Below are positions 1 to 61,125 of a stretch of 64,000 nucleotides of DNA, one piece after another (the first letter of the stretch is position 1; the number at the start of each line of letters is the position of its first letter). The notes under the pieces are model-generated. The model was not told the DNA's origin. It was given only the letters and a program-made list of their open reading frames with translations, and did no database searches. This stretch comes from Chaenocephalus aceratus. Its lineage: Eukaryota; Chordata; Actinopteri; Perciformes; Channichthyidae. The stretch lies in assembly GCA_023974075.1 (NCBI GenBank), contig JAMFTG010000587.1:1-64000 (forward strand), read 5' to 3'. The position numbers were made by a program, and so were the translations under genes.

Positions 1-7746
<7,746 letters not shown>

Positions 7747-20722: not shown

Positions 20723-23700
20723 ATGTCGGGCACAGAAAACAAGGCTGAGATTTTCACCATAACTGAGATGGTGGAACCTCCAGCTGAAAGGGAAACCATG
20801 AGGACGAGCATGTTCGAGCAGTATGCGCAGCCGTGCCTGGCCGAGCTGTACGGGACGACCCTGTTTGTGTTTGTGGGGTGTGCGTCTGTGATGGGGAACA
20901 TTGGACAATTCGGGGTCCTGCAGGCTGCTATGGCTCATGGCATGGCACTGGCTGTGCTCATCATGCTGTTTGGGGAAATTAGGTAAAGATATTGTGTTTT
21001 CTAAAGCGGACTGATCATTTATTGTCTTAGAAATGTCTTAAAATCTTGTGTAGAGACAACATGAATACTTTTGTGAGATAATATTACCTTTTTGGTATGG
21101 TTTTCTGTCACATATTGACAAAGTAAGGATTACTTAAAATTAACTCATTAAGTTGGTTTCTCAGCAGACTGATTATTTCTTGTCTTTTAAATGTCTTAAA
21201 ACAGTTGTAGAGCCAACATACATTTACACGGTTGTTCATTTGCTTTAAAATGTCAGTAAATAATACGCTTGATAAAGTTTCTATTGTTATCTGTCACAGA
21301 CAATGTTGTGTACAAATAAACCCTGCAGCTGTTAGCTGTTATACAACTGATAGATAAGGGTAATTATTTTTTATCTCAATGAACTGATTTAAAGATAATT
21401 TGCCTTAACATGTAGTTCACAGAGAATATTAAGTAGATTACTTACGATTTTTATGATTTGTCACACACAGACACATTTCAATAGATAGATTATTATTCAT
21501 AAATATCATTTTGATTCAAAGAATGACCTTACCTTTTTACCCCATGTGTGCTAGATAAGGTTCATTGGTATCAGTTCATAACGTTATTCCAGAGATAACA
21601 GAGCAACGTTTATTGTGTTTTTGCAGCGGCGGGCACTTTAACCCTGTGGTGTCTGTGAGTGTGTACCTGTGTGGAGGGATGAAGGTCGCCCTGCTGCTGC
21701 CGTACATCCTCGCCCAGATGTTAGGAGGCATGTTGGGGGCGGCTTTAACCAGGGTGAGGAACACTAGGGAAGCCAAATTCTGCCCCAAAAAAGTGAAACA
21801 AATAGATGAAAGGTTTGTTATAATGAAAATATAAATACTCAAGGTAAGTCACGAAGTTGACATAACTTCTGCAGTCAAAAGCATTTAACATATTTAGTCA
21901 AATATACAAGATAATAAGCAAGTATTCCGTCATTTTAACTTATTAAATTGCATTATTGACGTAATATCTCTTAAGATTATATTTTTAAAATAATTATATG
22001 ATTTTATATTGCATAATTTTTAACCGTCAGATTGTTTAAGTATCTCAACTAGGACAAAGTAGGTCCATAATGTATTAAAATATTAGATGAATTAATACTT
22101 TCTCATGATTTGAACTAAGTAACGTGAAAGTATGTAATCAAATCTCAAAATATTGACCTAGTATTTCAAGATTTTGTCCTAAAATATCAGAATTTTGACG
22201 AAATAAGTTACATTTTTTACTTAAAATCTTCCAATTTTGACTTACTAAGCTAAACGTTTTTGATGTATCTTATAATGATAATTAAGGCATTTTATGACAA
22301 AAAAAGAATACGAAACAACTGATATCCTTAGCACCCTTTAATCCTGGTCTTGATTTTGTGCTATCTCAGTTTAGAGTAAAAACAAAAGGTGAAAATAAAT
22401 GAGAACTATTCTCTTCAGTCTATTTTATGATGGATAATTGTATCATGCAGGGATATTATATATAAATGTGTCCTTCTTTCAGGGCGTATTTCCCGATAAC
22501 ATTTATAATGCTTCCTTCGGAGGATCCTTTCTCGTGGGCCCGACCGCAGATCTGGCTAAAATCACTCTGGCCGAGGTGATAATGACGTTGTTCCTCACGT
22601 TGGCGGCCTGCATGGGGGCCGTCAACAAGAAGACCAGCTCCCCAGTGGCTGCGTTCTGCATCGGCCTCACTGTGAGCGCAAACATATTAGCGGGGGTAAG
22701 ATCATCCACAATCCTGCACAACATTATCCATCCACAGATCACAACCAGAGGGGGAATTACTGTATGTTGAATGCTGAGGCCATGACAGCCACAAATACAT
22801 TTAATTAGCTGTCCAGTTAGATTTTCTGCAAGTTTAATTATGGAGGAAACAATTGTCACATTTCCAAGAGTACATTTGTACATTTCCAAGACATTTGCGG
22901 AGATTGATGCAGTAAATGTAAGACCCTGTACAAAAAAAAACACATGGATTTTCACGATTAAAGTCACATATTAAAATGAAAAGAACTTGAAAAATAGTGG
23001 TCATCGGATCCCATTCCTTTACTTGGTTGGATCAACCTCAACAAACTCATACATTTAACATTTTAATCTTAAATAATATCCATGTTTAATATATATCTTT
23101 ATTCTTCCTAAATGCTCCAATCTACCATGATGAGATTCTGGTGGAGTTATAATAGACCTGCCTTCAGTCGGCTTAACCATACATAAAGGTCTAAACATAT
23201 TTGAATCAGCATTAAAAAAACATATCTGTTATTTAAAATACTCCCGCTCATAAATAATATACAGAGGGCATGAATACCGTGTCCTTGAAGTCACCTGCAG
23301 CCCTAAACCCTACACACACGTATTTATTACCATTATCAGTTATAAGAGAGAAGACAAGGTTCGTTATTGACTTGTTGTATAACCTTGAAAGGCCTGTTTA
23401 ATATTTAATCCAATCCTAACATAAATAAATAAATATTGTAATCTGCAGCAAAACTCTGTGAAGAACTCTATTAAACCACATAGCATTATTTTTGTATTTG
23501 AGTTGCCACTGATACTTCTAAATGTTAAAGGTCACCTATTATGCAAAATCCTCTTCTTCATGTCTCTTCTACATCAACATGTGTCCCCTCTTCTTCATGT
23601 CTCTTCTACATCAACATGTGTCCCCTCTTCTTCATGTCTCTTCTACATCAACATGTGTCCCCTCTTCTTCATGTCTCTTCTACATCAACATGTGTCCCCT

Positions 23701-26700
23701 CTTCTTCATGTCTCTTCTATCAACATGTGTCCCCTCTTCTTCATGTCTCTTCTACATCAACATGTGTCCCCTCTTCTTCATGTCTCTTCTTCATGTCTCT
23801 TCTACATCAACATGTGTCCTCTCTTCTTCATGTCTCTTCTACATCAACATGTGTCCCCTCTTCTTCATGTCTCTTCTACATCAACATCTGTCCCCTCTTC
23901 TTCATGTCTCTTCTACATCAACATGTGTCCCCTCTTCTTCATGTCTCTTCTACATCAACATGTGTCCCCTCTTCTTCATGTCTCTTCTACATCAACATGT
24001 GTCCCCTCTTCTTCATGTCTCTTCTACATCAACATCTGTCCCCTCTTCTTCATGTCTCTTCTACATCAACATGTGTCCCCTCTTCTTCATGTCTCTTCTA
24101 CATCAACATGTGTCCCCTCTTCTTCATGTCTCTTCTACATCAGCATGTGTCCCCTCTTCTCCATGTCTCTTCTACATCAACATGTGTCCCCTCTTCTTCA
24201 TGTCTCTTCTACATCAACATGTGTCCCCTCTGTGGAAAGAGACTCTGAAAGTTTCAGGAAAAAAGATTCTCTCTCTTTTTGTCCTGTGATGTCATAACGA
24301 TGTGTTGGCTTGAGTAACCATTAGCCAATCAGCAACCAAGGTACCCCCCCCCCCCCCCCCCCCTATCACCTGAATCTCCTCCTAGAGCACCATTGAGTTT
24401 TTTGTAACCAAATCACTCTTAGAATAGCGTGGGGAGGGGTTCCTTATTTCATCTAAAGTAACAGACAGAGAATCAGCACTTTGGAAACAGGGCTGAAACA
24501 GAGGGGATTATGGGTAATGCTGCAATGATCTGTTTGGTGTTTGGAGCCAAACACTTCAGAGACATGTTTGTATATATCTGACACCTATGATATATTGATG
24601 AGAAACAGTGTAATAGGGGACCTTAAAGCAAACTGTTGAGCTATATTCCTCCAGCTGTGTTGCAGTGTCAGTTATTGTCTGTTGTTTCAGAGGCCAGCTG
24701 TCTGGAGCCTGCATGAACCCGGCCCGAGCCTTCGGTCCTGCAGTGGTTACAGGCCGGTGGGGCTTTCACTGGATCTTCTGGGCAGGACCCTTATGTGGAG
24801 CGCTGATCACCGTCACCTTAGTCAGGTTTGTAGAGACAACAAATACTACTGCACCTGTTTGTTTGATATCTTTAAAAAAAAGTTTGATTAAAAAAACTAC
24901 AAAGATACTCGAATTGCCCGTAAAAAAACACTTAAATAACGACAAAAACACACAAGATGACTGCAATTGATGTATCATTTTCAGTCTTGGGCTGTTTCTC
25001 AATGTCGAGTATACCTGCTGCAGAGCCACTGTTTCAAGTATACTGAAGGACTGTTTAAATGCATGTTAAATGCCCAGCATTCGGCGCCACTCGATGACGT
25101 AGTATACTTGAAATAGTGGCTCTGGCCTTGGTGTCTGATGTCTGTGCCCATCGTTCATCTGTGTCCACCAAAAGATTTCCAGCCAAATGAGACCTGGGCA
25201 AGCACCTGCATAAAAACACGACCTGGTGAGAAGACAAAAACATAGTGTTGTTTAAAAGTACAATGTTTGTTTGTTATATAACGAACGTACGTGCGTTTAA
25301 TAGGTATATTACCCAAGTAAACATTAAAATAGGTCAATATTGATTTCTGGTTTCACATAAACATGAAATGCTTCTTCGTAAAAGTCCCAAGTTAGTTTGA
25401 CATATCTATCCTCCCCATAATCCATTTTTATATCAGACATTGTCGCACTTAACACTTTGTCACCTGCCTTCTTAAGGCCCTGCACATCCTGGCTCACATT
25501 TACGTTCCAAACTAACTATGATGCTTCCCTTACAGGAGGTTTAAGTAAAGAAACGGGACATGATATCCGTCTGGTGCAGTAGTTTGATATTGTTACTATT
25601 CAACAGGGTCTTAATATATTTTACTTAAAGGTGTCCTGTGGAGTTTTCGGCAACTAGAGGTGCTACAGCGCTATGTCTGTACATGAGAGTGACATTTTGG
25701 GCGGCACATTGGTTCACATCCTGCTTTTCCAGTGATGCACTCGCATTTAAAACAAGTGTAGCAATGTGTTAAAATCAAGCAGTATTTCACATGTGTTTGG
25801 CAGTGAGGGCTATTTTCCCACACTTGTTGTATCAAATATCCATTCAGGTTAATGTGAAATGCAAATTACACAATTTTTGTTGAGTTAAATATAAATAGTG
25901 ACACCTTATGTTCCATGTATATGCTTCACGTGATGCTGAAAGGTCATGAAAGTGTCTTGTTCAGATAGACAGGAGTATATAGATAAGAGGCTGGATTAAA
26001 CCTGACAGCCCCATAGTTGATCTTGATTACACAATACACTTACAGTAGTAAGGAGTTTATAACATCCCTCCTTTTCCACTGGACTTCAGTCTCACCTAAC
26101 ACAGAGACAAACATGGACCTCCTGTGGATCCACCCACAGAGCTTTAGTACAGTCTGACCTTCTAAACCTACCCACCTTTATAAATGTAGTCAAGCTTTAA
26201 CTAACTTTTAAATATTCATTTTAACCCTGGACGGGTGATGAGACGATGGGCACAGACATGTACTGTAAAAGACACTAAGACTGAAATTGGTGCAACAATT
26301 GCAGTCATTTTGTGGTTATTTTAATGTTTTTTTGAGGGCAATTTTAGTATCTGTGTAGTCTCTTTTTTAGTTTATTATATCACTGCCTTTCTGTATTTGC
26401 ACAAATGATGTCCCCCGGATAACTTGCAACCGTGCAGTCACACATTTCTGCAGGTGGTAGAGATCAAAATGAAGGTCGTGGGTAAAAAGGGGATCATTTA
26501 TGGCACTGGTAACCGATTTGCTTAATTTTAAGGGCATTTAAAGTGTCTTTGTTGGCAACTCGTATCGTTTTGTGGCTGTTTTAAGTCCTGTTGTGGGTAT
26601 TTTATATTTTGGCTTTCTGCCTAATTGTCACTGCACAGATGTTGTCATCTCATTGTCTTTGCAATCAAGCAAGATGCAGTCACACATTTTTGTAGTCAAA

Positions 26701-27133
26701 ATGAAGGCCACGTTTGTAGATGTGGTCCGAGCAAGAGGGCCAAAAGGGGGAATAGGTAGTGGGATATCAGCAATTAGCCCCCCATAGACACACTTCACAT
26801 CCTGTGTCTTTAGTTGTGTGTGTCTTTTTGGTTGTTTTTGCATGATTTTGTAGTAGTTTTTCTTCCTTCTGTGGACATTTGTTTGCCATTGGTCATCATA
26901 TTGTACCTTTGTGAGCATGTTGAGTCTCTGTGGAGTCATTTAGCATCTTATTGTGGTTTGGTGTGTTTTTGTATGGCACGTTTTCTCTGCCAGATTGGCC
27001 ATTCAGTAAATGATCCATGTTCATAACAAAATAAATAATTCTCAGTGTTGTTGTGAATGACCAATAATTGCTTGTATCACTCTTTTGCAGGTTGCTGCTT
27101 GGTGACCAGGTGACCCGAGTTTGGTTGAAGTAA
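20723..27133 (+). CDS. aqp8: Aquaporin-8 (first tandem copy)
   Basis: Aqp8 is a membrane channel conducting water, ammonia and peroxide. Exons: 20723-20982 ([11 protein letters not shown] ... GEI), 21627-21753 ([18 protein letters not shown] ... AALTR), 22483-22695 (GVFPDN ... NILAG), 24691-24825 ([18 protein letters not shown] ... TLVR) and 27091-27133 ([13 protein letters not shown], stop). All introns are GT-AG. Six membrane segments and two pore loops are present; loop B is NPV instead of NPA, loop E is NPARAF with the usual preceding Cys. The His of the selectivity filter (MAHGMAL) and the Arg after NPA are kept. Oddity: exon 3 ends in phase 0 (GCG GGG before gtaaga) while exon 4 needs a 2-nt overhang; one G too many in the run at 22692-22696 would shift the frame. 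A TTAA element occupies intron 3. Start: first ATG giving the family N-terminus. Confidence 0.9.
23529..24622. mobile_element. TTAA-flanked element with 37-bp array (copy 2), aqp8 intron 3
   Basis: Bounded by TTAA at 23525-23528 and 24623-24626, with AGGTCACCTATTATGC at the left and the complement of AGGTCCCCTATTAC at the right. Orientation is opposite to the lcmt1 copy. It holds about 18 units of the same 37-bp repeat (23555-24235) with a few internal deletions, then the shared unique arm, including a run of over 20 C at about 24343-24363. The right end lies 64 bp before the exon 4 acceptor of aqp8. Confidence 0.85.
23555..24235. repeat. 37-bp minisatellite, about 18 units
   Basis: Same unit as at 2722-4128 in reverse complement, but far more homogeneous (nearly all units carry catcaacatgtgtcccctc). 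Three plus-strand frames are open for the same reason as in copy 1 and are not genes. Confidence 0.95.
25021..25124. repeat. Small inverted repeat in aqp8 intron 4
   Basis: 24-bp arms with one mismatch: cagagccactgtttcaagta at 25021 and its complement ending tagtggctctg at 25124, separated by about 56 bp. It resembles a short hairpin MITE. Confidence 0.65.
25125..27090 (+). other. Remainder of aqp8 intron 4
   Basis: No exon or identifiable element is seen. Short open frames have no family resemblance. Ends at the acceptor tcttttgcag. Confidence 0.55.
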
Positions 27134-27330: not shown

Positions 27331-28790
27331 ATTGTGATCCGATAGCTTGTCCTCACTCAGACTTCACAGGCGCGATGAAAGCTGGAAAACGTCCCGGGAT
27401 ATTTGATAATAAACTTCATACAAATGATCCCACTTTCTGTTATCTATTAACAGTCTTTTTATACTCAAGTTTGGGTCAAAGTCCTCCATGGAAAACCATT
27501 CTTTGATAGCGTGATTACTGAAAATACAGTACATGGACTAGACTTGACTGTAATAAATCTAGATTAATCATAAACTGGTGCCCTCAGATCAACTGAATCA
27601 CCATGGAATAAAAAGCTTTTAAAAATCAATACATTTCAAAACTTATGATAAAGATAGATCATTTACATTTTGCATACCGCACCCTTTATATCTATTTGTA
27701 GGTGCAGGGATGTAACAATCACATATAGAAACGGAAAAGTTTTGTTTTCTTACCACTTCCAGTTCCTTCGACAAAAAAGCAATTCAATCTCTCCATAGGG
27801 TTTTGGAAAATAGCTGGAAATAAGGTCTGTGGGTGAGACACATTGAAGAGACGGATCACGTTTTGTTCTACGACATTAAATCCATCAGCAGTGACCCCGC
27901 TGGTGATTTTGGAAGAGTTGACGTGTCTGAAAAACGATGGTTGTTAACAAGTGGCTGAATAGGACTACAGCACCTTGGTTGCTGATTGGCTAATGGCTAC
28001 ACAAGCCAAAACATCGTTATGACATCATAAAGTGGCCAAAATCTGATCAGCTCGTTTTCAGACAGGTTTTTATAGAAATGGATCAAAAAGAGAGAACATT
28101 TTTGTTCCTGAAACTTTCAGAGTCTCTTTCCACAGAGGAGGGGACACATGTTGATGTAGAAGAGGGGACACATGTTGATGTAGAAGAGACATGAAGAAGA
28201 GGGGACACATGTTGATGTAGAAGAGACTGTCGGTGCGTTGTTGTTTAGCTTCACCAACTTAATGTTTAACAAAGATTAAATCTGTTAAGTGTCTCTAGCT
28301 ATAGCGCTTTGATAAATGTAGTGGAATGGAAAATCCAAACATTTCCCTCTGATTTGTAATGCTGTATAGACTAGGAGAGATATGCAAGTTTATCTGATCT
28401 TTAAGTAAATTAAATGTATTGGTGAATGAATGTACTTGAGGCAAGATTATGGAGTGCACAAAGGCATTGACCCATATTGCTTAGTGTGAAGTCTAATTTA
28501 CACTTATATCTTATCTACAGTATATAGGCCCCTATTACTCTTTTTATACCTGCATCCAACATGATGACGATGCAACATGCCACCTTTATGACCCCACTGG
28601 CCCAAGTTGACTTTGAAACAGGCTGTGTCTTGTTTTGAACCTTCCCACCTGTGGACTGGATCACCTGGCCTGGTGTTAAAGTACTTATTTGGGGCGGGGA
28701 TTGCACTAATACTACGAATCTTGAAACTACTAACACCTTTGATGTTGTATAACCCATGATGCAATGCAATCCCAGTGTGTGCCAGATGCA
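27331..28790. other. Region between the two aqp8 genes
   Basis: About 1.5 kb between the poly(A) signal of the first aqp8 and the TATA box of the second. It contains the truncated 37-bp-repeat element at 27971-28228; otherwise no gene or element could be identified. Confidence 0.5.
27971..28228. mobile_element. Truncated copy 3 of the TTAA/37-bp element
   Basis: The unique arm (ccttggttgctgattggcta ... ttcagagtctctttccacag) matches 2560-2722 and is followed by only two to three 37-bp units, one with an internal deletion. Neither TTAA border nor outer terminus remains. Confidence 0.85.
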
Positions 28791-28796: not shown

Positions 28797-28860
28797 CACC
28801 TCGACTTAGTCTGCAGGCTGGGCCAGGTGCAAGAGTCTTTTAGAAATACAACGAGCAGCA

Positions 28861-31800
28861 ATGGGAGAGAAAATGGAAATGGAGGACACAGACTGCACTC
28901 TGATGGAGAAGGGGAAGAAGCCAACAGCGCCCAAACCTCCAAACAAATACGAGACTCTGTTCCAGCCTTGCCTCGCCGAGATCATCGGGACCATGTTCTT
29001 TGTTTTTGTGGGCTGTGTGTCCGTCATTGAGAACGTTCCGGCGGCTGGACGCCTGCAGCCGGCCCTCGTGCACGGACTGGCTGTGGCTGTGATGGTAGCG
29101 GTCATGGATAACATCAGGTAAAGGTGTCAAGACTAGTAATAACCAGAGATGGCAAAAGTACACCGATCCTTTACTCAAGTAGAAGTACAGATACTCGTGT
29201 TTAAAAATACTCTGGTAAAAGTAGAAGTACTGACTACACTTCTGTACTCAAGTAAAAGCAAAGAAGTATGGGCACCAAAATGTACTTAAGTAAAAAGTAC
29301 CCATAACTTTGTGTACTTGGGCAAAACACTTCACCCTAAGGTGCTGTATTCACTGTTTCATGTCTGATATGTGTATTATCAGAATCAGAAGACCTTGATT
29401 AGTCCCACCGAGGGGAAAACGCTTTGAGATGGCAATAAGTCAGATGCTTTTGGACGAGTCATATATTTTGAGGAAATGAACATTTCTGTGCTGCTTCTCC
29501 TTCTCTAGTGGCTCCCATTTCAACCCTCCCTTCACCATTGCCATCTACCTGTGTGGAGGCATGAAGCTGATGATGGTGGGGCCGTACCTGGCCAGCCAGC
29601 TGATTGGAGGAGTGCTGGGAGCGGGAATGGCCAAGGTCAGTTGAAAGTTAATCAACTTATAAAGGTGAAATACTCTGAAACAACTCTGTCTTCTACTTAA
29701 TGATGTTCCCTTTCATCCGAAATGCTTCGAGGAAACTGCTTTTTTTTCTAAGGATTGATTTATAGATTGAAACAAAAACGACTTGATCTTTTTTGTTGAA
29801 CCTCATGGTTTGCTTTAAAACGTGTCCTTTGAAACATTTTCATTGAAATGACACAGGTTATGCAAACAACACTTTCCCTTAGTTTCTTCTACTTTGGGCA
29901 TCTTAAAGCTTCAATATGTCTTTTGCTGGTAGGTATTAAGCTTATTAATATCAATTTATTTGACAATGCGGTTTTTTTTGTGGGTGTAAAATGTTCTAAG
30001 ATATTGGGCTCTTAAAAATGTCATGAAAGTGGACTGTGACACGGATATGCACACAAGACTTTACCTTATATTTTATACTTTGGGCATTTAAAGTCTTCCA
30101 TATGTTTCTGCTGGGAGCTTTTTAGCTGGTTAATATAAAGATGTTACTCCTTGTCTGTTTGGATTACACTGCATATGTGTTTTCCCTAAAAGCTTAAGGG
30201 GAAATGTAACATGGGAATGCACTTTTTAAAAGACCAGGCTGTCTGAAAGGATGCATGTTTGAGCACACTGAAAAGCCAACTAAAGAAATCGTGAATCTTC
30301 TCTCCCAGATGATGGTCCCTGCAGACCGTTACCTCAACGCCACAGGAGCAGCGTTTGACATCCTGAAGTCGGATAGCCAGCTAACCGGAGCCATCTTTGG
30401 GGAGGTGGCCATGACCTGCCTGATCACAATGGTGGTGCTGCTGGTGGCTGTCAACCAGAAGACCAAAACCCCACTGGCCCCCTTCCTGGTGGGCTCCACC
30501 GTCATCATCAATGTGCTGGCAGGGTGAGATAAGAGGGCGATGACCAAAACATGTGTTAGCAGTTTATTGAGACACCGTGTTAATTATTCATGTGTGATAG
30601 TTATCAGCTCCTTGTCGGTTGCCACTTTCTAAGTTTATGATCCAACTTTACAGCGTGCAGGGAGGAGCCCACTGATAATAATTGGCATTTAATTCAAACT
30701 GAATAAAAGCGTCCCCAAAATGAAATTACTTTAATTACTAAAAGTGGCAGACATTGACATTTATACGTTTCTCAAGCACTCAAGTTGTAGTAGTGAGCTC
30801 TCTTCATAATTAAATCAGTATTGTTTTTACAAATTTCCCTCACAAGTTATTTCAAAATAAGGGTAATTCAAAATTTGAATTATTATTTGAACATAATTAC
30901 TAAAATAATGACATTTCTCAATCAATTGGAAAATACTTGAATCGACACTGGCAGAATCTGAATTAAATGCAAGTCAATAGCTAAATTAATTTAGCTTCCT
31001 GTTGTTATCCAATTTTTTTAATGTAATATATCTGAAAGTATGAAATTCCATCTCTGGCTGTATTTACTAATATGACCAATACATTTTTTAGATAACCACA
31101 TTATCATGAATTAAACAATGGTGATTAAACGTTATATAATTTCTGCTGCTACAGTCATAAGAAATGTTTAGGTTTGAACAAATTAAGCAACTGGCATTAA
31201 TAACACATATTGTTTCTGTCCTGTGGGTTGCAGGGGCGATGTTTCGGGGACGTGTCTGAACCCGGCCCGAGCGTTTGGTCCGGCTGTGATGGCAAACTAT
31301 TGGGTTTACCACTGGGTTTACTGGGTGGGACCGATCGGAGGAGGCCTGGTGGCCGCCGCTCTGCTCAGGTGAGAGAAGCGGCTTGATACAATAACATAAT
31401 TCAATTAATAAATAATACTTCATAAGTTAGTTTTTTTTTGTTTTAAAGTCTGCTTAGTTGCTAGATTAGTGTTCAAAGAGTTGTACTTTTAGGTTAAAGC
31501 ACTGGTGATGTAACTGTACAAAATGCATTATTATTATTAATATTAATATAATCATTATAATTATTATATAGTATTATTTAGTATTTATGTTTGTATTTAA
31601 TAATAAAACGTATTTTTATTAAATAAATAAGTAATCAAACTATAATTATTATTATTATTATTTTGACTATTTATTTATTTATTTTATAATAATAATAAAT
31701 CATTATTAATGTCATTATTTGTTACTAGTATTTGTATTGATATTATTTATTATTATTTTCTTTAGTTATTCGTGCATTTGACTATTTATTTTATTATATT

Positions 31801-31912
31801 TGAATTGTTATTATAAAGTGTGTTATTCAAATTATTATAACTCATGGTGCCTCTCTTCTGTTTCAGGCTCATTCTGGGTGACAGTAAGTTAAGAGTGGTT
31901 ATGAAAACATAA
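28861..31912 (+). CDS. aqp8: Aquaporin-8 (second tandem copy)
   Basis: Same five-exon structure as the upstream paralogue: 28861-29117 ([12 protein letters not shown] ... MDNI), 29509-29635 ([18 protein letters not shown] ... AGMAK), 30309-30523 ([10 protein letters not shown] ... INVLAG), 31234-31368 ([18 protein letters not shown] ... AALLR), 31867-31912 ([14 protein letters not shown], stop). Junction phases 2, 0, 2, 2 all join correctly, and every intron is GT-AG. Loop B is NPP, loop E is NPARAF with the preceding Cys two residues before the Asn; the filter His is in LVHGLAV. The cytosolic N-terminus (about 35 residues, acidic then Lys/Pro-rich) differs fully from the first copy, suggesting different trafficking or regulation (inference). 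Poly(A) signal at 32019. Confidence 0.93.
29144..29310. mobile_element. Teleost hAT-type MITE fragment in aqp8 intron 1
   Basis: Starts cagagatggcaaaagtacac and continues with repeated 'actcaagtagaagtac' and 'acttaagtaaaaagtac' blocks, a pattern common in fish introns. The second terminus is not clear. Confidence 0.5.
31520..31800. repeat. AT-rich ATT/TAAT simple repeat in aqp8 intron 4
   Basis: Near-continuous tattatta/ataataat low-complexity DNA between exons 4 and 5 of the second aqp8. Confidence 0.9.
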
Positions 31913-32018: not shown

Positions 32019-32024
32019 AATAAA
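32019..32024 (+). terminator. aqp8: Poly(A) signal of second aqp8
   Basis: AATAAA about 107 nt after the stop codon, facing the globin poly(A) signal on the other strand roughly 105 bp away: the two genes are convergent. Confidence 0.7.
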
Positions 32025-32128
32025 GAACAAAACATGTAGCTGCTCTCTTCATTTATTCTCTTGCAAGAAATAAAGTATTGTATGAATTAAAAGACACATT
32101 TCAGAAGCAAATTTTGAGCGGCATGCAG

Positions 32129-32134
32129 TTTATT
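32129..32134 (-). terminator. Poly(A) signal of the alpha-globin remnant
   Basis: AATAAA on the minus strand (tttatt on +), 63 nt after the globin stop; normal spacing for a globin 3' UTR. Confidence 0.75.
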
Positions 32135-32461
32135 CTCTAATTGTTCACAATGAGTGAAAGGATGGCCTGCATGTGGCATTTCCCTCCGCGTGCAGTTTAG
32201 CGGTATCTGTCAGCGAGAGACAGGGCCACTGCAGAGAGGAATTTATCCAGGAGACGTGGGCCTCGGGGGTGAACTCCGTCGGGAACATGGTGGTGATCAC
32301 CACCAGGATGCAGTGGTTCAGGATCTGCAGGGAAACAATTGAAAAGCAAATTGAAAAAAAATCATAAAACCACATTTAATTTCACTGTAACAGAAGAGTT
32401 GTTATTTTTTACTTCATTCCCGTGTCGCTGAAAATCATGCTGAATGCAACAGCAGCACACA
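32129..32461 (-). pseudogene. hba: Alpha-globin remnant: exon 3, 3' UTR and 3' end of intron 2
   Basis: On the minus strand an acceptor (tttccctgcag, ending at 32325) precedes exon 3 from 32324: ILNHCILVVITTMFP, then TEFTPEAHVS, then in the next frame DKFLSAVALSLADRYR and a stop at 32199-32197. Alpha-globin exon 3 should be 129 nt; here it is 128, with one base missing in the codon between Ser and Asp (tcctgg at about 32247). This breaks the frame and removes the conserved C-terminal Tyr-Arg. The 3' UTR is about 60 nt with AATAAA at 32134-32129. Upstream only about 136 bp of intron 2 remain; from 32462 the sequence is the repeated tRNA-cluster unit. Exons 1 and 2 are absent, so no haemoglobin chain can be made. 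The residues resemble notothenioid adult alpha chains. Confidence 0.9.
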
Positions 32462-32728
32462 TTGTGTGTATAAACAAGATTTTGTTAATCTAGATGTATC
32501 TGATGCCCACTGGTAGATATCTATATAAAGAACGGTATTTGAGAAAATCATAATTTATAGAGGTTGGGTGTTCCTAAAAGCACCTATTTCACTTTCTAGT
32601 GACAAATTGAAGCCTAAACGAAAGACTCTCTAGTCTAGAGCATAGGAAAAATATTTGGTTATAATAACAGAAACATTTAGAAAATTCAAGAGTAATGGCT
32701 ATTGTTTTTGATATTGTTGCCATTTTGT

Positions 32729-32822
32729 GCTCCAGTGGTGCATTCGGTCAGCGCGCGGTACTTATAAGACAGTAACCTGCAGAGTGATGCCGAGGTTGTG
32801 AGTTCAAGCCTCACCTGGAGCA
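32729..32822 (+). tRNA. tRNA-Ile (TAT), intron-containing
   Basis: GCTCCAG acceptor 5' arm pairs with CTGGAGC at the 3' end; the T-arm GTGAG..CTCAC with TTCAAGC is intact. Anticodon loop CTTATAA carries TAT followed by an intron of about 20 nt, as usual for this isoacceptor. The D-arm reads gtgcattcgg where sister copies have gcgcaatcgg, so this copy may be impaired. Confidence 0.85.
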
Positions 32823-33069
32823 GAGAAGTTTAGCTTTTCTAGTCATCTGCACGCAACATGAAAGTTTAAAAAGGTGTTGGGGCTGCCGGATTCGGCACCC
32901 CCACTTTAACTTGGTCCTAGATAGTCGTACTGTCACCAAAATCAGACTGGTGTTTGCTGTTCACCTTTAGTTTGTGCACACAGAAACATTTGACTCTGGG
33001 CTCAGCAGGTGAGAACCTAAAGAGGGGCTCCACATGAGGCAGACCAGGTGTTGGTGCACACGTAAGATA

Positions 33070-33141
33070 GGCGCTGTAGCTTAGTGGTAAAGCGCCTGTC
33101 TCGTAAACAGGAGATCCTGGGTCCAAATCCCAGCAGTGCCT
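33070..33141 (+). tRNA. tRNA-Thr (CGT), recombinant with a Thr(TGT) gene
   Basis: GGCGCTG pairs with CAGTGCC; anticodon stem CCTGT/ACAGG encloses CTCGTAA. The upstream flank (gtgcacacgtaa) is that of other Thr(CGT) genes, while the T-loop (gtccaaat) and downstream flank (tctttgttccagaaaacat) match the Thr(TGT) gene at 40120. It thus looks like a CGT/TGT crossover product. Confidence 0.88.
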
Positions 33142-33484
33142 CTTTGTTCCAGAAAACATCTCTTGAAATCTGTGCTACATTCACCTCAGAAGTAAGGGTT
33201 TTAGTTTGGGAGGAGAAACGGCCATTCCCAATGTGATTGATGAACCCTCGCAGATGATCTGATGTCACCTGGTAAATACCTGCGAGTGCAAGATCTCAAA
33301 AGTATAAATACAATGAGACAGCACTTTGTGACACATCCTATTACTTTGATGACGAATGTTAAATACAGAAGTGGATTTGGGACTTTTTATATTATATATT
33401 ATTTGCAGCCTGATAATAATTTTTTTGTGGAAGAATGAAAGGAAACAGCTGAGCCCATAACTGAGACGAACACCTTCTGAAAGT

Positions 33485-33557
33485 GGTGCTGTGGCTTAGT
33501 TGGTAAAGCGCCTGTCTAGTAAACAGGAGATCCTGGGTCCAAATCCCAGCAGTGCCT
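33485..33557 (+). tRNA. tRNA-Thr (AGT)
   Basis: GGTGCTG/CAGTGCC acceptor stem with two G-T pairs; anticodon loop CTAGTAA. Intact D-arm (gcttagttggtaaagc) and T-arm. 73 nt. Confidence 0.9.
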
Positions 33558-33729
33558 CTTTGTTACAGAGAGCATCTTTTAAGATAAACCTCTCATCGTT
33601 CCCATGTTCAATTACATGGAACAGTAAATGTTTGGTATAGTTTGTGCTTCAAAATGGCTTGGATTAAGGTTTAAAGTTGACTGTTATCCACCTCTGAAGT
33701 AATGGATGGATTAGTTTGTGTGTATAAAG

Positions 33730-34431
33730 TTATTGTACTTGGCCCGAAGAATCTACGAAACAAATTATCTAAAGATATACTAACTATGGATGGCATTAAT
33801 TTGGCCTCCAGTGAGACTATAAGGAATCTTGGCGTTATATTTGATCAGGATTTATCCTTTAACGCCCACATAAAATCAATATCAAGGACCGCCTACTTCC
33901 ATCTACGTAACATTGCAAAAATCAGGCATATCTTGCCTCAAAACGATGCAGAGAAACTAGTCCATGCATTTGTTACTTCCAGGCTGGATTATTGTAACTC
34001 TTTATTATCAGGGAGTACCAAGAAGTCAGTCAAGTGGCTTCAGCTGATTCAAAATGCTGCGGCTCGTGTACTAACCAGAGTTAGGAAAAGGGACCACATT
34101 ACTCCTGTTCTGGCTGCCTTACACTGGCTCCCTATAGAACACAGGATAGAATTTAAAATTCTTCTTCTCGCCTATAAAGCCCTTAATGGGCAGGCGCCAT
34201 CTTACCTTAAAGAACTCATTATACCCTACTGTCCTACTAGGGCATTGCGTTCCAAGAATGCAGGGTTGTTGGTTGTTCCTAGAGTATCTAAAAGTACAAT
34301 GGGAGCCAGAGCCTTTTCTTATCAAGCTCCACATTTGTGGAATCAGCTTCCAGTTTGTGTTCGGGCGGCAGACACCCTATCCGTTTTTAAGAGTGCGCTT
34401 AAGACCTTCCTTTTTGATAAAGCTTATAGTT
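33730..34431 (+). pseudogene. LINE RT C-terminal fragment, tandem copy 1
   Basis: Open frame up to 34442 with the post-catalytic RT region of an L2/Rex-like LINE: ETIRNLGVIFDQDLSFNAHI, RLDYCNSLLSG, LQLIQNAAARVL, HWLPIEHRIEFKILLL, LWNQLPVCVR. The catalytic YADD part is missing (5'-truncated insertion). It lacks the LINE 3' tail because a 728-bp tandem duplication begins at 34432. Confidence 0.85.
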
Positions 34432-34762
34432 GGATGGATTAGTTTGTGTGTATAAAGTTATTCTACTTGGCCCGAAGAATCTACGAAACAAATTATCTAA
34501 AGATATACTAACTATGGATGGCATTAATTTGGCCTCCAGTGAGACTATAAGGAATCTTGGTGTTATATTTGATCAGGATTTATCCTTTAACGCCCACATA
34601 AAATCAATTTCAAGGACCGCCTACTTCCATCTACGTAACATTGCAAAAATCAGGCATATCTTGCCTCAAAACGATGCAGAGAAACTAGTCCATGCATTTG
34701 TTACTTCTAGGCTGGATTATTATAACTCTTTATTATCAGGGAGTACCAAGAAGTCAGTCAAG
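34432..34762 (+). pseudogene. LINE RT fragment, tandem copy 2, first part
   Basis: Repeats 33704-34034 with a few substitutions, including the short host spacer ggatggattagtttgtgtgt before the LINE. Interrupted at SKKSVK-equivalent position by the insertion at 34763; resumes at 38741. Confidence 0.88.
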
Positions 34763-35115
34763 TAGAACGCCACTCACTCGCTAACCTCTATGATTCTAAA
34801 ATCCCCTTTGAAGAGAAAGGACGCTGGCGCTGATTGTTCGCCGCTTTTCCGCCTCTGCTACCCTCTTTCACACCAGCTATCATTTTGGAAGTTACCTTGG
34901 ACTTTTTGTAAGTTACTTTGGACTTTTTGTAAGTTACTTTGGACTTCTGCCTCTGCTGCTGTCTGTAACTGGCTGCCCTCACCCATCAAAGTGCCGGGTG
35001 GCTATTTGCTATCTGCTACATCACCTACCTCCTGTCTGTCCCCATCGCACACAACATCCTTGGACTCTCTCTGCCTCCTGCATCTGTTCCGTCCCGCTGT
35101 TCACGTCCTCCTCCC

Positions 35116-36477
35116 ATGTCGTGGATTTTCCTCGTCTCCACGGGAATCATCTACCTCTGTGCAGCTAGCCTGCTAGCCGCGGTCGCCGCTAACCCACTGC
35201 GTCCAGCCTTTCCGCCTGTCATCATGCTGAAATACACCGTCTCACAGCTTCTGTCACTTAATAAATCCTCCATCCCGTTATCCACCTCAGTCATCAGACA
35301 TCTTGGACTCCTCCGTCGACCCCGCTACATCCACCGAAGCACTCGTCGCAGTTTCGTTTACTCTCAGCACGGACAACAATCCATACCATCCATCTGCTCT
35401 ACCCAACACACTGTCGCACACCTGAGGCGTCATCAGAGCGCACCTCCTACTGTTCCTCTTACACTGCACGGAATACCCGGACCGGATTCCACTCCCCTCC
35501 GCCTCCCAACACAACCTGCTCCCCCACATTCCCAGCTCCACAGAATACCCGGAGCGGATTCCACTCCCCTCCGCCTCCCAATACGCATAACAAACCAGTT
35601 TTCCCTACCACCATGCCCCCCACCTCTGCTCCACCACCACCCCCCTTCTCCTCCCCACCCCCGTGTTGCTAACCTGGATAACCTCATACCTCTCCACCCT
35701 GCCACCACCCCTCCAATCCCCCACCTGACCAACTTCGCCCTCCTCAACATCCGGTCACTTACCAACAAAACCCACATCCTTCACGAACAAATTCTGGACA
35801 AATCGATTGACTTCCTTCTGCTCACTGAAACCTGGCAACAACCCAACGACTTCTTCTCCCTCAACCAAACATCACCTCCTGGTTTTAATTACATCACGAA
35901 ACCCCGCCCCTCACGCCGTGGTGGTGGGCTGGCTGTCATCCACAACCAGAACATCCGGATTACAGAACTCACCCTCCCCTCAGTACCATCCTTTGAATTC
36001 CTCGCCTTCAAAGCCCCTCCCTCACTGACAGTTATCCTCATCTACCGGCCCCCCAAACCGGACCACTCCTTCCTCTCTGATCTCACTGAACTCCTCATCA
36101 TTGCTTCATCCCTCTCCCCACGTCTGTTACTCCTTGGTGACTTCAACATCCACTCCCCCACCTGCAAACATGCCTCTGAACTTTCCTCCCTTCTGGACAA
36201 CTTCTCACTTACCCAACATGTCACCTTCCCCACCCATGATAAAGGACACATCCTTGACCTTGTCTGCTCCACCAACCTCCCAGTACTCGACCTCCACCCC
36301 TGCCCCTTTCCCCTCTCTGACCACAAACTTATACAGTTCGCCATCACCTCCCCTGTCCGCTACCCCCCCCCCCTTCCAGGAACATCTCCTTCCGTAACCA
36401 CGCTCTGTCGATCCCCAGCACCTATCCCACCTGCTATCCTCTACTCTCCCCCTGGACTCGAACCTCAGCACACCTGA
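35116..36477 (+). pseudogene. LINE endonuclease ORF part
   Basis: 453 codons. Residues from about 205 form an AP-like endonuclease: FALLNIRSLTNK (motif I), LLLTETWQ (catalytic Glu), RRGGGLAVI, VILIYRPP, LLLLGDFNIHSP (catalytic Asp/Asn), DLVCSTN, LSDHKLIQF (catalytic Asp-His). This nicks target DNA for target-primed reverse transcription. The stop at 36475 interrupts the frame before the RT domain; an intact ORF would continue into it. Confidence 0.88.
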
Positions 36478-38542
36478 TGACCTACTCAATCACCTCAACT
36501 CCACCCTTCTCACCTCCCTCAACAGCCTGGCCCCCCTCAAAAGGAAAACTGTCACCTTTACAACCTCGTCTCCCTGGTTCACCCCTGCACTCCGTAGAAT
36601 GAAACAAACCGGCCGTCAGCTTGAACGCTTAACAAAAAAAATCATCCCTCACAGTTCACCACCAATCCTACAAACTTCATCTCACCACCTACAGAGATGC
36701 CCTCACTGCCGCAAAATCAGCTTACCTCTCCAACATCTTCACCGACCCCTCCCGCAACCCCAGGACCCTCTTCTCCACCGTCAACAAGCTCCTCAAACCC
36801 CGTGCCGACACCCTCACTTCCTCCACTTCCACCTTATGCAGTTCATTCCTCCAGTTTTTCTCGGACAAAATCACTGCCATTAATCACTCCCTATCTGCTT
36901 CTCCAATCTCTCCCTCCTTCTCCCCTGACCTCCCGACTCCCCCTCCCCACGGCCGCCTCTCCCAGTTCACTCTGGTCTCCCCCTCTGAAATTCTCAATCT
37001 GATCAGCTCCTCCAAACCCACTACCTGCTCCCTTGACCCTCTTCCCACCCCTCTACTGAAGTCCTGCCTCCCCGTCCTCTGCCCCTACCTTGTCAACCTC
37101 TTCAACTCCTCCCTGTCCCAAGGAACCGTTCCCTCTGCCTTTAAAACTGCTGCTGTCACTCCCATCCTCAAAAAACCCGGTCTGGATCCCTCATCCCTCA
37201 GTAACTACCGCCCCATCTCCAACCTCCCCTTTCTCTCCAAAACAATAGAACGCATCATCTCCAAACAACTTCACCGCCATCTTCAATCAAATCACCTCTT
37301 CGAACCCCTTCAGTCTGGTTTTCGTCCCCATGACAGCACAGAAACGGCACTCGTCAAGGTCCTCAATGACCTCCTCACCTCTGCTGACACCGGTTCCCTC
37401 AACATCCTCATCCTCCTCGACCTGAGTGCAGCCTTTGATACCGTGAGCCACAACATCCTGCTCACCCGACTCCAAGACATCGGTATCGAAGGTACTGCGC
37501 TCAGGTGGCTCCAGTCATATCTCTCCAGTCATATCTCTCCGACAGATCCCACTTCATCTCCCTCGATAATCACTCCTCTGCCACCGCTACAGTCACCCAA
37601 GGTGTTCCCCAAGGCTCAGTACTCGGCCCCCTCCTCTTCATCATCTACATCCTCCCCCTTGGTCAGATTCTCCGCCACTACAACCTGGACTTCCACTGCT
37701 ACGCCGATGACACTCAAATCTACCTCAGCACCAAATCCCTCCATAACCCCCCCATCACCCACATTGAATCCTATCTGACTGACTTGAAATCCTGGATGCA
37801 AAAAAACTTTCTTAAACTCAACAGCAATAAAACTGAACTCCTCCTCATCGGCTCCAAATCCACCCTCAGTAAAAACCCCAACCTCACACTGACCATCGAT
37901 GGCACCCCTGTTTCCCCCTCAACCCAGGCACGCAACCTCGGGGTTATATTCGATCCCACCCTCTCCCTTGACTCCCACATCCGCCAAGTTGTCAAAATCT
38001 CATTTTTCCATCTCCGCAACATTGCCAAAATCCGTCCCTATCTCACCCGCCCCGCAGCTGAGCGACTCATTCACGCCTTCATCTCCTCCCGCCTCGACTA
38101 CTGTAACTCCCTCCTATACGGCATCAGCTCCACCTCCCTCAGTAGACTCCAGCGTGTTCAGAACGCAGCCGCCAGACTTCTCACCCACACTAAATCATGG
38201 CACCATATCACCCCGGTCCTCAAAGAACTACACTGGCTTCCCGTTACTCACCGCATCAACTACAAACTCCTGGTCCTTACCTATAAAGCCCTCCACCATC
38301 TGGCCCCCCCGTACCTCACTGACCTTCTCATCCCCTACCATCCTCCCCGGACCCTCAGATCCACCTCGGCCGGCCTGCTTTCCACCCCCATTGGCAATCT
38401 CCGGAGCTTTGGAGACAGAGCCTTCTCTGTGGCCGCCCCAAAGCTCTGGAACTCCCTCCCCCAAGACCTCCGTGAGTCCGAGTCCCTCACTCTGTTCCAG
38501 TCCCGCCTCAAAACCCATCTTTTCACCTCTCTCTATCCGTAA
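36478..38542 (+). pseudogene. LINE reverse transcriptase part
   Basis: Pieces in changing frames: about 37140-37510 encode the early RT blocks (TPILKKPGLDP, NYRPISNLPFLSK, LLDLSAAFDTVSHNILLTRL, motif A). After a 14-bp tandem duplication at about 37510-37537 the frame 37505-38542 continues: TQGVPQGSVLGPLLFIIYI (motif B), CYADDTQIY (catalytic), FLKLNSNKTELLLIG, RLDYCNSLLYG, HWLPVTHRINYK, LWNSLPQDLR, ending FQSRLKTHLFTSLYP. Most of the RT is conserved; the inactivating lesions are few, so the insertion is fairly young. Confidence 0.88.
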
Positions 38543-38740
38543 AACACCCCCCCACTCATTTTCGACCTCCTCCTGACTGCCACTGTGTTTTGTTTTGTTG
38601 TTTTTGTTGTTTTTCTTAGTCTGTTGTCTACCTGCCCCAGTCTATCTACCCCCCCCCCCCCCCCCCCCCCCCCCCTCATATTGTAAAGCGTCTTTGGGTA
38701 CTATAAAAGCGCTATATAAATCCAATATATTATTATTATT

Positions 38741-39478
38741 AAGGGGCTTCAGCTGATTCAAAATGCTGCGGCTCGTGTACTAACCAGAGTTAGGAAAAGG
38801 GACCACATTACTCCTGTTCTGGCTGCCTTACACTGGCTCCCTATAGAACACAGGATAGAATTTAAAATTCTTCTTCTCGCCTATAAAGCCCTTAATGGGC
38901 AGGCGCCATCTTACCTTAAATAACTCATTATACCCTACTGTCCTACTAGGGCATTGCGTTCCAAGAATGCAGGGTTGTTGGTTGTTCCTAGAATCTTTAA
39001 AAGTACAATGGGAGCCAGAGCCTTTTCTTATCAAGCTCCACATTTGTGGAATCAGCTTCCAGTTTGTGTTCGGGCGGCAGACACCCTATCCGTTTTTAAG
39101 AGTGCGCTTAAGACCTTCCTTTTTGATAAAGCTTATAGTTAGGACTGATTAGATTCAGCCCCTAGTTTTGCTGATATAGGCTTAGTCTGTCGGGGGACAT
39201 CTTACTTCTTCCTTCTCTCTGTCTATACCTGTGTACTCTCATGTTCCGATTAACCCAGCTTGCCCACATGTCTTTCTTGTTGGTGTCTATATACGCTGGG
39301 ATCCGGAGTCATGGATGATCCTGCGGTCCTGTGTCCTGGATCGCGAGCGCTGGATCTTGAGTCGGGGCTTTGGTCCTGGATCATCGGTCCTGGATGGATA
39401 TCCTCGTGGATTCATCTTCCTATTATACACACATGCATTTCCAAACATTTGGACTACCTATGTTGCAAATGTATTATG
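38741..39478 (+). pseudogene. LINE RT fragment, tandem copy 2, second part and 3' tail
   Basis: Continues copy 2 (LQLIQNAAARVL ... FDKAYS) with one in-frame stop where copy 1 has Lys (cttaaataactc), then a 3' region to about 39478 that directly truncates the tRNA-Ile of unit B. Confidence 0.85.
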
Positions 39479-39794: not shown

Positions 39795-39866
39795 GGCGCT
39801 GTGGCTTAGTAGTAAAGCGCCTGTCTCGTAAACAGGAGATCCTGGGTTCAAATCCCAGCAGTGCCT
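39795..39866 (+). tRNA. tRNA-Thr (CGT)
   Basis: GGCGCTG/CAGTGCC acceptor; loop CTCGTAA; T-loop gttcaaat. D-loop reads ttagtagtaaagc (tag for tgg in sister copies), so the GG of the D-loop is altered and function may be reduced. Confidence 0.85.
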
Positions 39867-40119
39867 CTTTGATACAGAGAATATCTCTACATTACTGAAT
39901 GCAATTTGCAATGTCGACCAAAAAAGGTTAGTTTCACATCCCACCACAGTCCACACAATCACCTCCAACATTGCGCAGGTAAAAGTGCACTCTGGATCAT
40001 TCTTTTAAACAAAGTCTCTTTATATTCAGCGTTACTCACCTAACATCATTGTGTGGATCTGCAGGCTTTAAAAAGTGAGTGAAATCAACTTCCTTTTAAC
40101 AAAAAACATTTGCAAAGTA

Positions 40120-40192
40120 GGCGCTGTAGCTTAGCGGTCAAAACGCCTGTCTTGTAAACAGGAGATCCTGGGTCCAAATCCCAGCAGTGCCT
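40120..40192 (+). tRNA. tRNA-Thr (TGT)
   Basis: GGCGCTG/CAGTGCC; loop CTTGTAA. The D-arm 3' side reads caaaacgcc where the copy at 57191 has caaagcgcc, weakening the stem. Confidence 0.85.
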
Positions 40193-40537
40193 CTTTGTTC
40201 CAGAAAACATCTCTTGAAATCTGTGCTACATTCACCTCAGAAGTAAGGGTTTTAGTTTGGGAGGAGAAACGGCCATTCCCAATGTGATTGATGAACCCTC
40301 GCAGATGATCTGATGTCACCTGGTAAATACCTGCGAGTGCAAGATCTCAAAAGTATAAATACAATGAGACAGCACTTTGTGACACATCCTATTACCTTGA
40401 TGACGAATGTTAAATACAGAAGTGGATTTGGGACTTTTTATATTATATATATTATTTGCAGCCTGATAATAATTTTTTTGTGGAAGAATGAAAGGAAACA
40501 GCTGAGCCCATAACTGAGAAGAACAACTTCTGAAAAT

Positions 40538-40609
40538 GGTGCTGTGGCTTAACGGTAAAGCGCCTGTCTAGTAAACAGGAGATCCTGGGTCCAAATCCCA
40601 GCAGTGCCT
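40538..40609 (+). tRNA. tRNA-Thr (AGT)
   Basis: Loop CTAGTAA, acceptor GGTGCTG/CAGTGCC. D-loop ttaacggtaaagc is one base shorter than the copy at 33485. Downstream flank matches that copy for about 160 bp. Confidence 0.87.
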
Positions 40610-41033
40610 CTTTGTTACAGAGAGCATCTTTTAAGATAAACCTCTCATCGTTCCCATGTTCAATTACATGGAACAGTAAATGTTTGGTATAGTTTGTGCT
40701 TCAAAATGGCTTGGATTAAGGTTTAAAGTTGACTGTTATCCACCTCTGAAGTAATGGATGGATTAGTTTGTGTGTATAAACTCGATTTTGTTATCTAGAT
40801 TTATCTGATGCCCACTGGTAAATATCTATATAAAGAACGATATTTGAGAATATCATAATTTATAGAGGTTGGGTGTTCCTAAAAGCACCCATTTCACTTT
40901 CTAGTGACAAAGTAAAGCCTCAACGAAAGACTCTCTAGTCTAGAGCATAGGAGAGTGTTTGGTTATAATAACAGACACATTTAGAAAATTCAAGAGTAAT
41001 GGCCTATTGTTTTTGATATTATTGCCATTTTGT

Positions 41034-41127
41034 GCTCCAGTGGCGCAATCGGTCAGCGCGCGGTACTTATAAGACAGTGACCTGCAGAGTGATGCCGAGG
41101 TTGTGAGTTCAAGCCTCACCTGGAGCA
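41034..41127 (+). tRNA. tRNA-Ile (TAT), intron-containing
   Basis: The best-preserved Ile copy: GCTCCAG/CTGGAGC, D-arm gcgcaatcggtcagcgc, anticodon TAT with an intron of about 20 nt, intact T-arm. 94 nt unspliced. Confidence 0.93.
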
Positions 41128-41351
41128 GGGAATTTGAGCTTTTCTAGTCATCTGCACGCAACATGAAAGTTTAAAAAGGTGTTGGTGCTGCCGGATTCGG
41201 CACCCCCACTTTAACTTGGTCCTAGATAGTCGTACTGTCACCAAAATAAGACTGATGTTTGCTGTTCATCTGTAGTTTGTGCACACAGAAACATTTGACT
41301 CTGGGCTCAGCAGGTGAGAAACTAAAGAGGGGCTTCCACATGAGGCAGACC

Positions 41352-41421
41352 AGGTGTTGGTGCACACGTAACAAAGGTGTTGGTGCACACGTAACATAGG
41401 TGCTGGTGCACACGTAACTTA
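41352..41421. repeat. Short tandem repeat upstream of tRNA-Thr
   Basis: Three units of about 23 bp (ggtgttggtgcacacgtaac). Other Thr(CGT) copies have a single unit in the same place. Confidence 0.85.
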
Positions 41422-41493
41422 GGTGCTGTGGCTTAGTGGTAAAGCGCCTGTCTCGTAAACAGGAGATCCTGGGTTCAAATCCCAGCAGTGCCT
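41422..41493 (+). tRNA. tRNA-Thr (CGT)
   Basis: GGTGCTG/CAGTGCC, loop CTCGTAA, T-loop gttcaaat; all arms intact. Downstream 200 bp (to about 41700) match 57591-57800, where a further Thr gene follows; here that next gene is replaced by repeat DNA. Confidence 0.9.
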
Positions 41494-41699
41494 CTTTGAT
41501 ACAGAGATTATCTCCAAATTACAAGACTACCCAAGAAGTTAGTTTCACATCCCACCACAAAAGTGGCCTCTTCAATGTTCTTTCAAACAAAGTTATGTTT
41601 ATATTCAGAGTTACTCACCCAAACTCATTGTGAGGATGTATAGGGTTTAAAAAAGAGTCAAATCAATTTCCTTTTAGCAAAAAAACTGTTGCAAAGCTG

Positions 41700-49614: not shown

Positions 49615-50130
49615 ATTTTAACTTGGAGGCTACGATTAGCATCGTTAGCACCAATGTAGCTTACATGCTAACCCAAGCCTTACCATTCGTTACGTAGCTG
49701 ATTAAAATCATTAACACATAAATAAAGCACTCGAATTTCACTTACCGCATTCATGCACCATCTGTTTTAACCGCAGTGCGAGTCACAATAGTCCGATATA
49801 TAAGCATGAAGAACAAACAACCACGTCCGGCTACAAGTTGTGTTTCCTGGATGAGCTGAGCAGGCAGAGTCCCTGTAGCTAGCTTCACGGAGCAGCTAGC
49901 AGAGAGACAAGAAGCTAACAGCGCCAGGCACTTGACAGAGCCGTCACTCAATGTGACCACGCCCTAATTTATGCACACACTTTAAGACCTAATATAAATA
50001 AAAGGGTCGCGTTAGAAAACAATTCACTCACAGATCCATAATCATGAAGGTGGAATCTAACTATATCGATAATAAAAATGTATGGAGCCAGGGGTAGAAA
50101 CATGTTTTTTTCTGCTGTAAAATTGGGCAT
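49615..50130. other. Unassigned DNA before the Kolobok-like copies
   Basis: No gene seen. The end (about 50040-50130) probably belongs to the 5' part of the Kolobok-like element, since the tandem copy starts at 50131. Confidence 0.4.
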
Positions 50131-57190: not shown

Positions 57191-57263
57191 GGTGCTGTAG
57201 CTTAGCGGTCAAAGCGCCTGTCTTGTAAACAGGAGATCCTGGGTCCAAATCCCAGCAGTGCCT
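57191..57263 (+). tRNA. tRNA-Thr (TGT)
   Basis: GGTGCTG/CAGTGCC, loop CTTGTAA, D-arm gcttagcggtcaaagc, T-arm intact. The best Thr(TGT) copy in the window. Confidence 0.92.
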
Positions 57264-57518
57264 CTTTGTTACAGAAAATATCTCTTGGATTAAGTGTGTT
57301 ATCCACCTCCAAATTAGGGGTTTGGTTTATTTTGGGCGTAAAACTATATTAGTGCATTCCCCATCTAATACTTGACCGTGACAGGATGCAACATACAGCT
57401 CAAAATATTGTTATTTTGGGACTTAATGAATAAAATATTTAACAGCCCGAAGAACATGTGGAGAGATAAAGAGAAACAATGGAATTTACAAAGTAAGGAG
57501 GTAGTAATTGTACAAAAA

Positions 57519-57590
57519 GGCGCTGTGGCTTAGTGGTAAAGCGCCTGTCTCGTAAACAGGAGATCCTTGGTTCAAATCCCAGCAGTGCCT
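57519..57590 (+). tRNA. tRNA-Thr (CGT)
   Basis: GGCGCTG/CAGTGCC, loop CTCGTAA. T-stem 5' side reads cttgg instead of ctggg, giving one mismatch with cccag. Confidence 0.87.
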
Positions 57591-57800
57591 CTTTGGTACA
57601 GAGATTATCTCCAAATTACAAGACTACCCAATAAGAAGTTAGTTTCACATCCCACCACAAAAGTGGCCTCTTCAATGTTCTTTCAAACAAAGTTACGTTT
57701 ATATTCAGAGTTACTCACCCAAACTCATTGTGAGGATGGATAGGGTTTAAAAAAGAGTCAAATCAATTTCCTTTTAGCAAAAAAACTGTTGCAAAGCTGA

Positions 57801-59471: not shown

Positions 59472-59501
59472 CGCCCTGGTGGACGCGGCTCTGGATCCCC
59501 T

Positions 59502-60974: not shown

Positions 60975-61125
60975 CTGATTTTCTTCCCTTTGAGGAACCC
61001 CGGGAAAAGGCTTTCTTTAACCAGAGTTCCTGCCGCTCTGCACGGAGCGCGAGACACTGTTCTTGGGATGACAGGACTTCCTGTATCCCGTAGAACTGCG
61101 GGGGGGAGAGGTGAATTGCAGAGAC
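60735..61125 (-). repeat. Direct duplication inside the DIRS RT 5' region
   Basis: Two copies of a segment of about 235 bp (each with ttttcttccc, gagttcctgc, cactgttcttgggatgacag and aactgcggggggg) lie head to tail. In the reading frame this repeats the residues just upstream of the RT. Confidence 0.8.

Follow-up and report, generated by a model that had tools for sequence, protein, structure and literature searches.

A 3' stub of alpha-globin beside aqp8 at the LA haemoglobin locus: a probable scar of icefish haemoglobin loss

Introduction

The 64-kb stretch of DNA analysed here, hereafter the window, leaves us in very little doubt that it comes from a white-blooded Antarctic icefish, almost certainly of the species Chaenocephalus aceratus, and represents its LA haemoglobin locus with a 5'-truncated alpha-globin remnant. 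The window holds an alpha-globin exon 3 that carries a frameshift, no other convincing globin piece, a neighbouring gene that matches C. aceratus, and a junction at which the remnant gives way to an array of tRNA genes. No evidence against reading the stub as an icefish remnant was found within the window. Such remnants are the classical evidence for how icefishes lost haemoglobin, and the window provides their sequence context on the aqp8 side.

Icefishes are described as the only vertebrates without functional haemoglobin (PMC7307600), and hba and hbb are absent from most of them (PMC7660546); these and the other papers are cited here from excerpts. For C. aceratus, the residual alpha-globin fragment has been placed in the LA cluster, with no trace of MN globins (PMC7307600), and three icefish genomes have one alpha-globin fragment at LA (PMC6884616). 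The sole haemoglobin remnant at icefish LA is described as the third exon of an alpha-globin, in a region that also carries transposon insertions (PMC10256766), and the icefish fragment is without the haem-binding region (PMC6861181).

Results

An alpha-globin exon 3 and its flanks

Sequence reading and tblastn both identify an alpha-globin exon 3 on the minus strand of the window (Table 1). It is matched at E<1e-3 by 120/120 alpha-type and 0/120 beta-type fetched globins, these 240 sequences being the best 120 of 1114 alpha-query matches and the best 120 of 941 beta-query matches. An approximate alpha-globin sequence of T. bernacchii, one of four globins used as additional queries, gave E = 2e-11 for 32333-32250, and human alpha-globin gave 1e-5. 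Exon 3 shares 23/25 and 14/17 residues with this approximate T. bernacchii sequence in the two reading frames described below. Among the 120 fetched alpha-type proteins listed, Notothenia neglecta (P0123) has the highest identity over exon 3, 34/42, and Lates (P0130), Centropristis (P0202), Artedidraco and Eleginops stand at 33/42; exon 3 alone is a weak species marker, which barely separates notothenioids from other fishes. When the PDB was searched, the best three of 118 matched sequences were the alpha chains of 1hbh, 3d1k and 1la6 (42-43 bits, top 43.1), which we take to be Trematomus haemoglobins, and human-derived alpha chains came next at 39.4 bits.

Table 1. Features of the globin stub and its two flanks, in window coordinates
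Feature	Position	Strand	Evidence
aqp8a.1	20723..27133	+	tblastn of P0002; five coding pieces
Second tandem aqp8 copy, aqp8a.2-like	28861..31912	+	tblastn of P0002; name by analogy
AATAAA 3' of second aqp8 copy	32019..32024; another at 32069-32074	+	pattern scan
Poly(A) signal AATAAA of alpha-globin remnant	32129..32134	-	pattern scan
Alpha-globin exon 3 with native TAA	32197..32324	-	tblastn, frame reading, PDB best matches 1hbh, 3d1k, 1la6
Presumed intron 2, 137 bp, acceptor at its 3' end	32325..32461	-	sequence reading
tRNA array unit abutting globin remnant: tRNA-Ile(TAT), tRNA-Thr(CGT), tRNA-Thr(AGT)	32462..33728	+	ARAGORN, Rfam, self-alignment
LINE pieces interrupting tRNA array	33703..39155	+	self-alignment, Pfam
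Rest of tRNA array (Thr CGT, TGT, AGT; Ile TAT; Thr CGT)	39795..41494	+	ARAGORN, Rfam

From its poly(A) signal to its junction with the tRNA array, the remnant spans 32129-32461. Exon 3 is preceded by an acceptor that looks intact, a pyrimidine-rich stretch followed by ctgcag (...tttccctgcag), and a pattern scan found a second minus-strand AATAAA at 32057-32052. The preliminary description had listed exon 3, its acceptor, the 3' UTR and the poly(A) signal beside aqp8, and all of these are present in the sequence. The 137 bp ahead of exon 3 are presumed to be intron 2, from their position and from the published remnants; their G+C content is 34.3%, and self-alignment of the window (matches of at least 80 bp at E<=1e-8) paired them with no other part of it.

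The 240 fetched globins produced 882 HSPs outside 32150-32470 when E values up to 10 were allowed, and none of these amounts to a convincing second globin piece anywhere in the 64-kb window. The absence of exons 1-2 from the locus, as previously described, is borne out over the full 64 kb with these 240 sequences and the four additional queries. The best of the 882 matches, at 43626-43573 (18 residues, E = 0.011, P0182), is short and isolated and was attributed to chance; among the ten best matches, seven more alpha-type queries hit the same place at E from 0.015 to 0.11. A match of one beta-type query at 15260-15141 (E = 0.016) was rejected, since it lies inside a reverse transcriptase ORF, and was also taken as chance. 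The earlier statement that the window contains no beta-globin holds, no beta-type match outside exon 3, of those listed, being better than E = 0.016.

A frameshift within exon 3

The codons of exon 3 form two runs in different frames: 25 codons, ILNHCILVVITTMFPTEFTPEAHVS (32324-32250), and then 17 codons, LDKFLSAVALSLADRYR, with TAA (32250-32200). The two runs overlap by one base at 32250, so that one base is missing relative to the normal 42 codons, a net -1 shift. The preliminary description had read NHCILVVITTMFP ... ADRYR as one exon; both parts do belong to exon 3, and it is the single reading frame that has to be given up. Read from its first codon, exon 3 departs from the globin frame after 25 codons, passes the native stop and ends in ...RPSFHSL. 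Because the site is a short C run (tctcctgg), the shift may be an artefact of assembly.

The stub is a dead pseudogene, being without exons 1-2, including the haem-binding part, and having a net -1 frameshift in exon 3. A living stub would be one expressed as a C-terminal alpha-globin fragment (Hb-alpha-3'f): in Champsocephalus gunnari a 3' alpha-globin fragment is proposed to be still made in vessels, on antibody staining of retinal vessels (PMC6861181), and the intact appearance of the acceptor and poly(A) signal would favour expression here as well. We nevertheless consider this highly improbable for the present locus, whose opening frame quits globin so early and overruns the native stop that no native C-terminus would result, and for which the window yielded no globin exon further upstream; the antibody, for its part, may have cross-reacted. 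If real, the frameshift makes a native alpha-globin C-terminus impossible from this locus in this fish, and it is relevant to the proposal that such a C-terminal fragment continues to be produced.

The aqp8 neighbours and the source species

Two aqp8 genes stand in tandem, and the stub lies tail to tail with them, its poly(A) signal standing about 55 to 105 bp from the two AATAAA on the aqp8 side. The coding pieces of aqp8a.1 are at 20723-20980, 21625-21753, about 22483-22695, about 24695-24830, and 27089-27130 plus stop; Pfam MIP (PF00230) is matched by the ORFs of three exons, that at 22438-22770 scoring under the curated cut-off. The second copy has open coding pieces near 28861-29115, 29495-29635, 30300-30524 and 31235-31369, and a last piece, all with approximate ends; Pfam MIP matches it at 28810-29121, and 30210-30527 has no Pfam match at E<=0.001. 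A 37-bp minisatellite occurs in three places of the window: 2721-4128 (about 38 copies), 23550-24231, between coding pieces of aqp8a.1, and 28134-28227, between the two aqp8 genes.

The assignment to the LA haemoglobin locus beside aqp8 is confirmed by this adjoining pair, on the combined evidence of tblastn, Pfam and identity. Of the 139 ORFs listed for the window, 20 were chosen for Pfam scans, which found neither rhbdf1b nor lcmt1; in the excerpted accounts of icefish genomes, rhbdf1b forms the far flank of the LA locus, and lcmt1 would be expected on the other side, past aqp8. The window shows the aqp8 side only, and to speak of the full genomic context of the deletion, as the preliminary description did, was too strong.

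The aqp8a.1 protein spliced from the window agrees with the C. aceratus hypothetical protein KUCAC02_027481 at every one of 245 aa (245/245, 100%). The splice compared is without the last 13 residues of P0002, and the last exon of aqp8a.1 also matches the C. aceratus protein. The next matches are T. bernacchii, which is red-blooded (93%), Eleginops maclovinus (79%) and Cottoperca gobio (69%); for this neighbour the best match is thus to C. aceratus and not to a fish with functional haemoglobin. The protein database was clustered at 90% identity, and because the P0002 cluster has eight members, which could include other icefishes, the species call rests on a 100% match to a representative. A sister icefish with a near-identical aqp8a.1 is possible; C. 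aceratus is the natural reading. To judge from this match, the source is almost certainly an icefish (Channichthyidae), C. aceratus. Asian noodlefish, another reported haemoglobin-poor group, were considered as a source and are disfavoured by the C. aceratus match.

The stub might otherwise belong to a red-blooded notothenioid in which the LA alpha-globin has degraded and the MN cluster still works, and there is some precedent in red-blooded cryonotothenioids, where one LA beta copy has repeatedly been lost or altered (PMC10256766). An aqp8a.1 identical to that of C. aceratus, against only 93% for that of T. bernacchii, makes such a source very unlikely. A weak point against it comes from the globin searches, in which no C. 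aceratus name appears in the best 120 of 1114 alpha or the best 120 of 941 beta matches, where only cluster representatives are named; a C. aceratus protein does occur in the protein database that gave these matches. The earlier interpretation as a scar of icefish haemoglobin loss is upheld by the aqp8a.1 identity over 245 aa and by the occurrence of the same remnant at LA in published icefish genomes.

A junction with a tRNA gene array

On the side where the globin gene is lost, the remnant ends at about 32462 and the sequence becomes an array of tRNA-Ile and tRNA-Thr genes with LINE pieces breaking it up. The tRNA genes of the abutting unit fall within 32728-33558, and self-alignment relates this unit to the rest of the array, 32462-33162 matching 40768-41514 (88.5%) and 33068-33728 matching 40118-40780 (98.0%). 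Two further tRNA-Thr genes were found by ARAGORN and Rfam at 57191-57591. The window as a whole has 10 tRNA genes according to ARAGORN and 11 according to Rfam (up to 72.4 bits), with the Thr anticodons CGT, AGT and TGT.

Among the LINE pieces are two tandem copies, the first at 33703-34445 and the second, which is split, at 34431-34763 and again at 38741-39155. Another LINE lies between the split halves, with Pfam matches to Exo_endo_phos (34969-36477) and RVT_1 (37439-38542). The ORF at 33681-34442 has no Pfam match, and we read this piece as a LINE 3' end.

Other repeats were recorded further along the window. Self-alignment revealed a 2.7-kb direct tandem duplication at 50129-55466, its copies (50129-52806 and 52792-55466) being 97.6% identical. 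On the minus strand, 58515-61016 presumably represents a DIRS-type retroelement; it includes a reverse transcriptase ORF (59502-61016) with Pfam RVT_1, and RT_RNaseH under the cut-off.

The globin junction coincides with a 14-nt motif, TTTGTGTGTATAAA, found with at most one mismatch at four sites in the window, 0.04 being expected, in a count to be read with the knowledge that the motif was chosen after viewing the alignment and that its four sites sit in related repeats and are not four independent events. The sites are 32461, at the globin junction (one mismatch), and 33715, 34443 and 40767, which are three segment ends of the array or LINE pieces. The motif marks the junction and does not prove a mechanism. 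One could imagine that the deletion behind haemoglobin loss at LA came about through a rearrangement that joined alpha-globin intron 2 to the tRNA-Ile/Thr array at TTTGTGTGTATAAA, and that a fragile, repeat-rich array was the cause of the loss and not mere filler; we regard this as an unlikely proposition. The tRNA-array junction would let one ask whether a single breakpoint is common to all icefishes, and what caused it.

Discussion

The arrangement is best explained by a deletion that would have taken the 5' portion of alpha-globin (exons 1-2 together with the greater part of intron 2) and, following the published account, the linked beta-globin as well. What stayed behind, tail to tail with aqp8, would be exon 3, the 3' UTR and a final 137 bp of intron 2; the missing side is now occupied by the tRNA genes and the LINE pieces that interrupt them. 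We infer that the gap was made by deletion rather than insertion, and proximity to the 3' end of aqp8 is presumably what has preserved the stub.

The finding of the stub is correct and already known. A 5'-truncated alpha-globin remnant of icefishes was reportedly described by Cocca in 1995 and by Zhao in 1998, and in the Zhao description it is said to comprise part of intron 2 followed by exon 3 and the 3' UTR. The tRNA junction and the exon 3 frameshift go beyond the earlier finding. Among the publications listed by literature searches, none was seen to describe a tRNA array, a breakpoint or a frameshift at this icefish locus, and we make no claim that these details are unpublished.

Comparison with the published icefish remnant (Kim 2019, PMC7307600; Bista 2023, PMC10256766), as excerpted, reveals the same part of the gene, the same position at LA beside aqp8, the same lack of beta-globin and, again, transposons in the gap. 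It differs in that this window has both a tRNA array at the junction and a frameshift in exon 3, whereas the excerpts of PMC7307600 and PMC10256766 contain nothing on tRNA genes or a breakpoint at icefish LA, and those of PMC7307600 nothing on a frameshift; older remnant papers may report either. The LA globin 'fossil' of Neopagetopsis ionah (Near 2006, via an excerpt of PMC7307600) is likewise a case of an icefish LA locus with a non-functional globin; unlike that 'fossil', this window keeps only exon 3.
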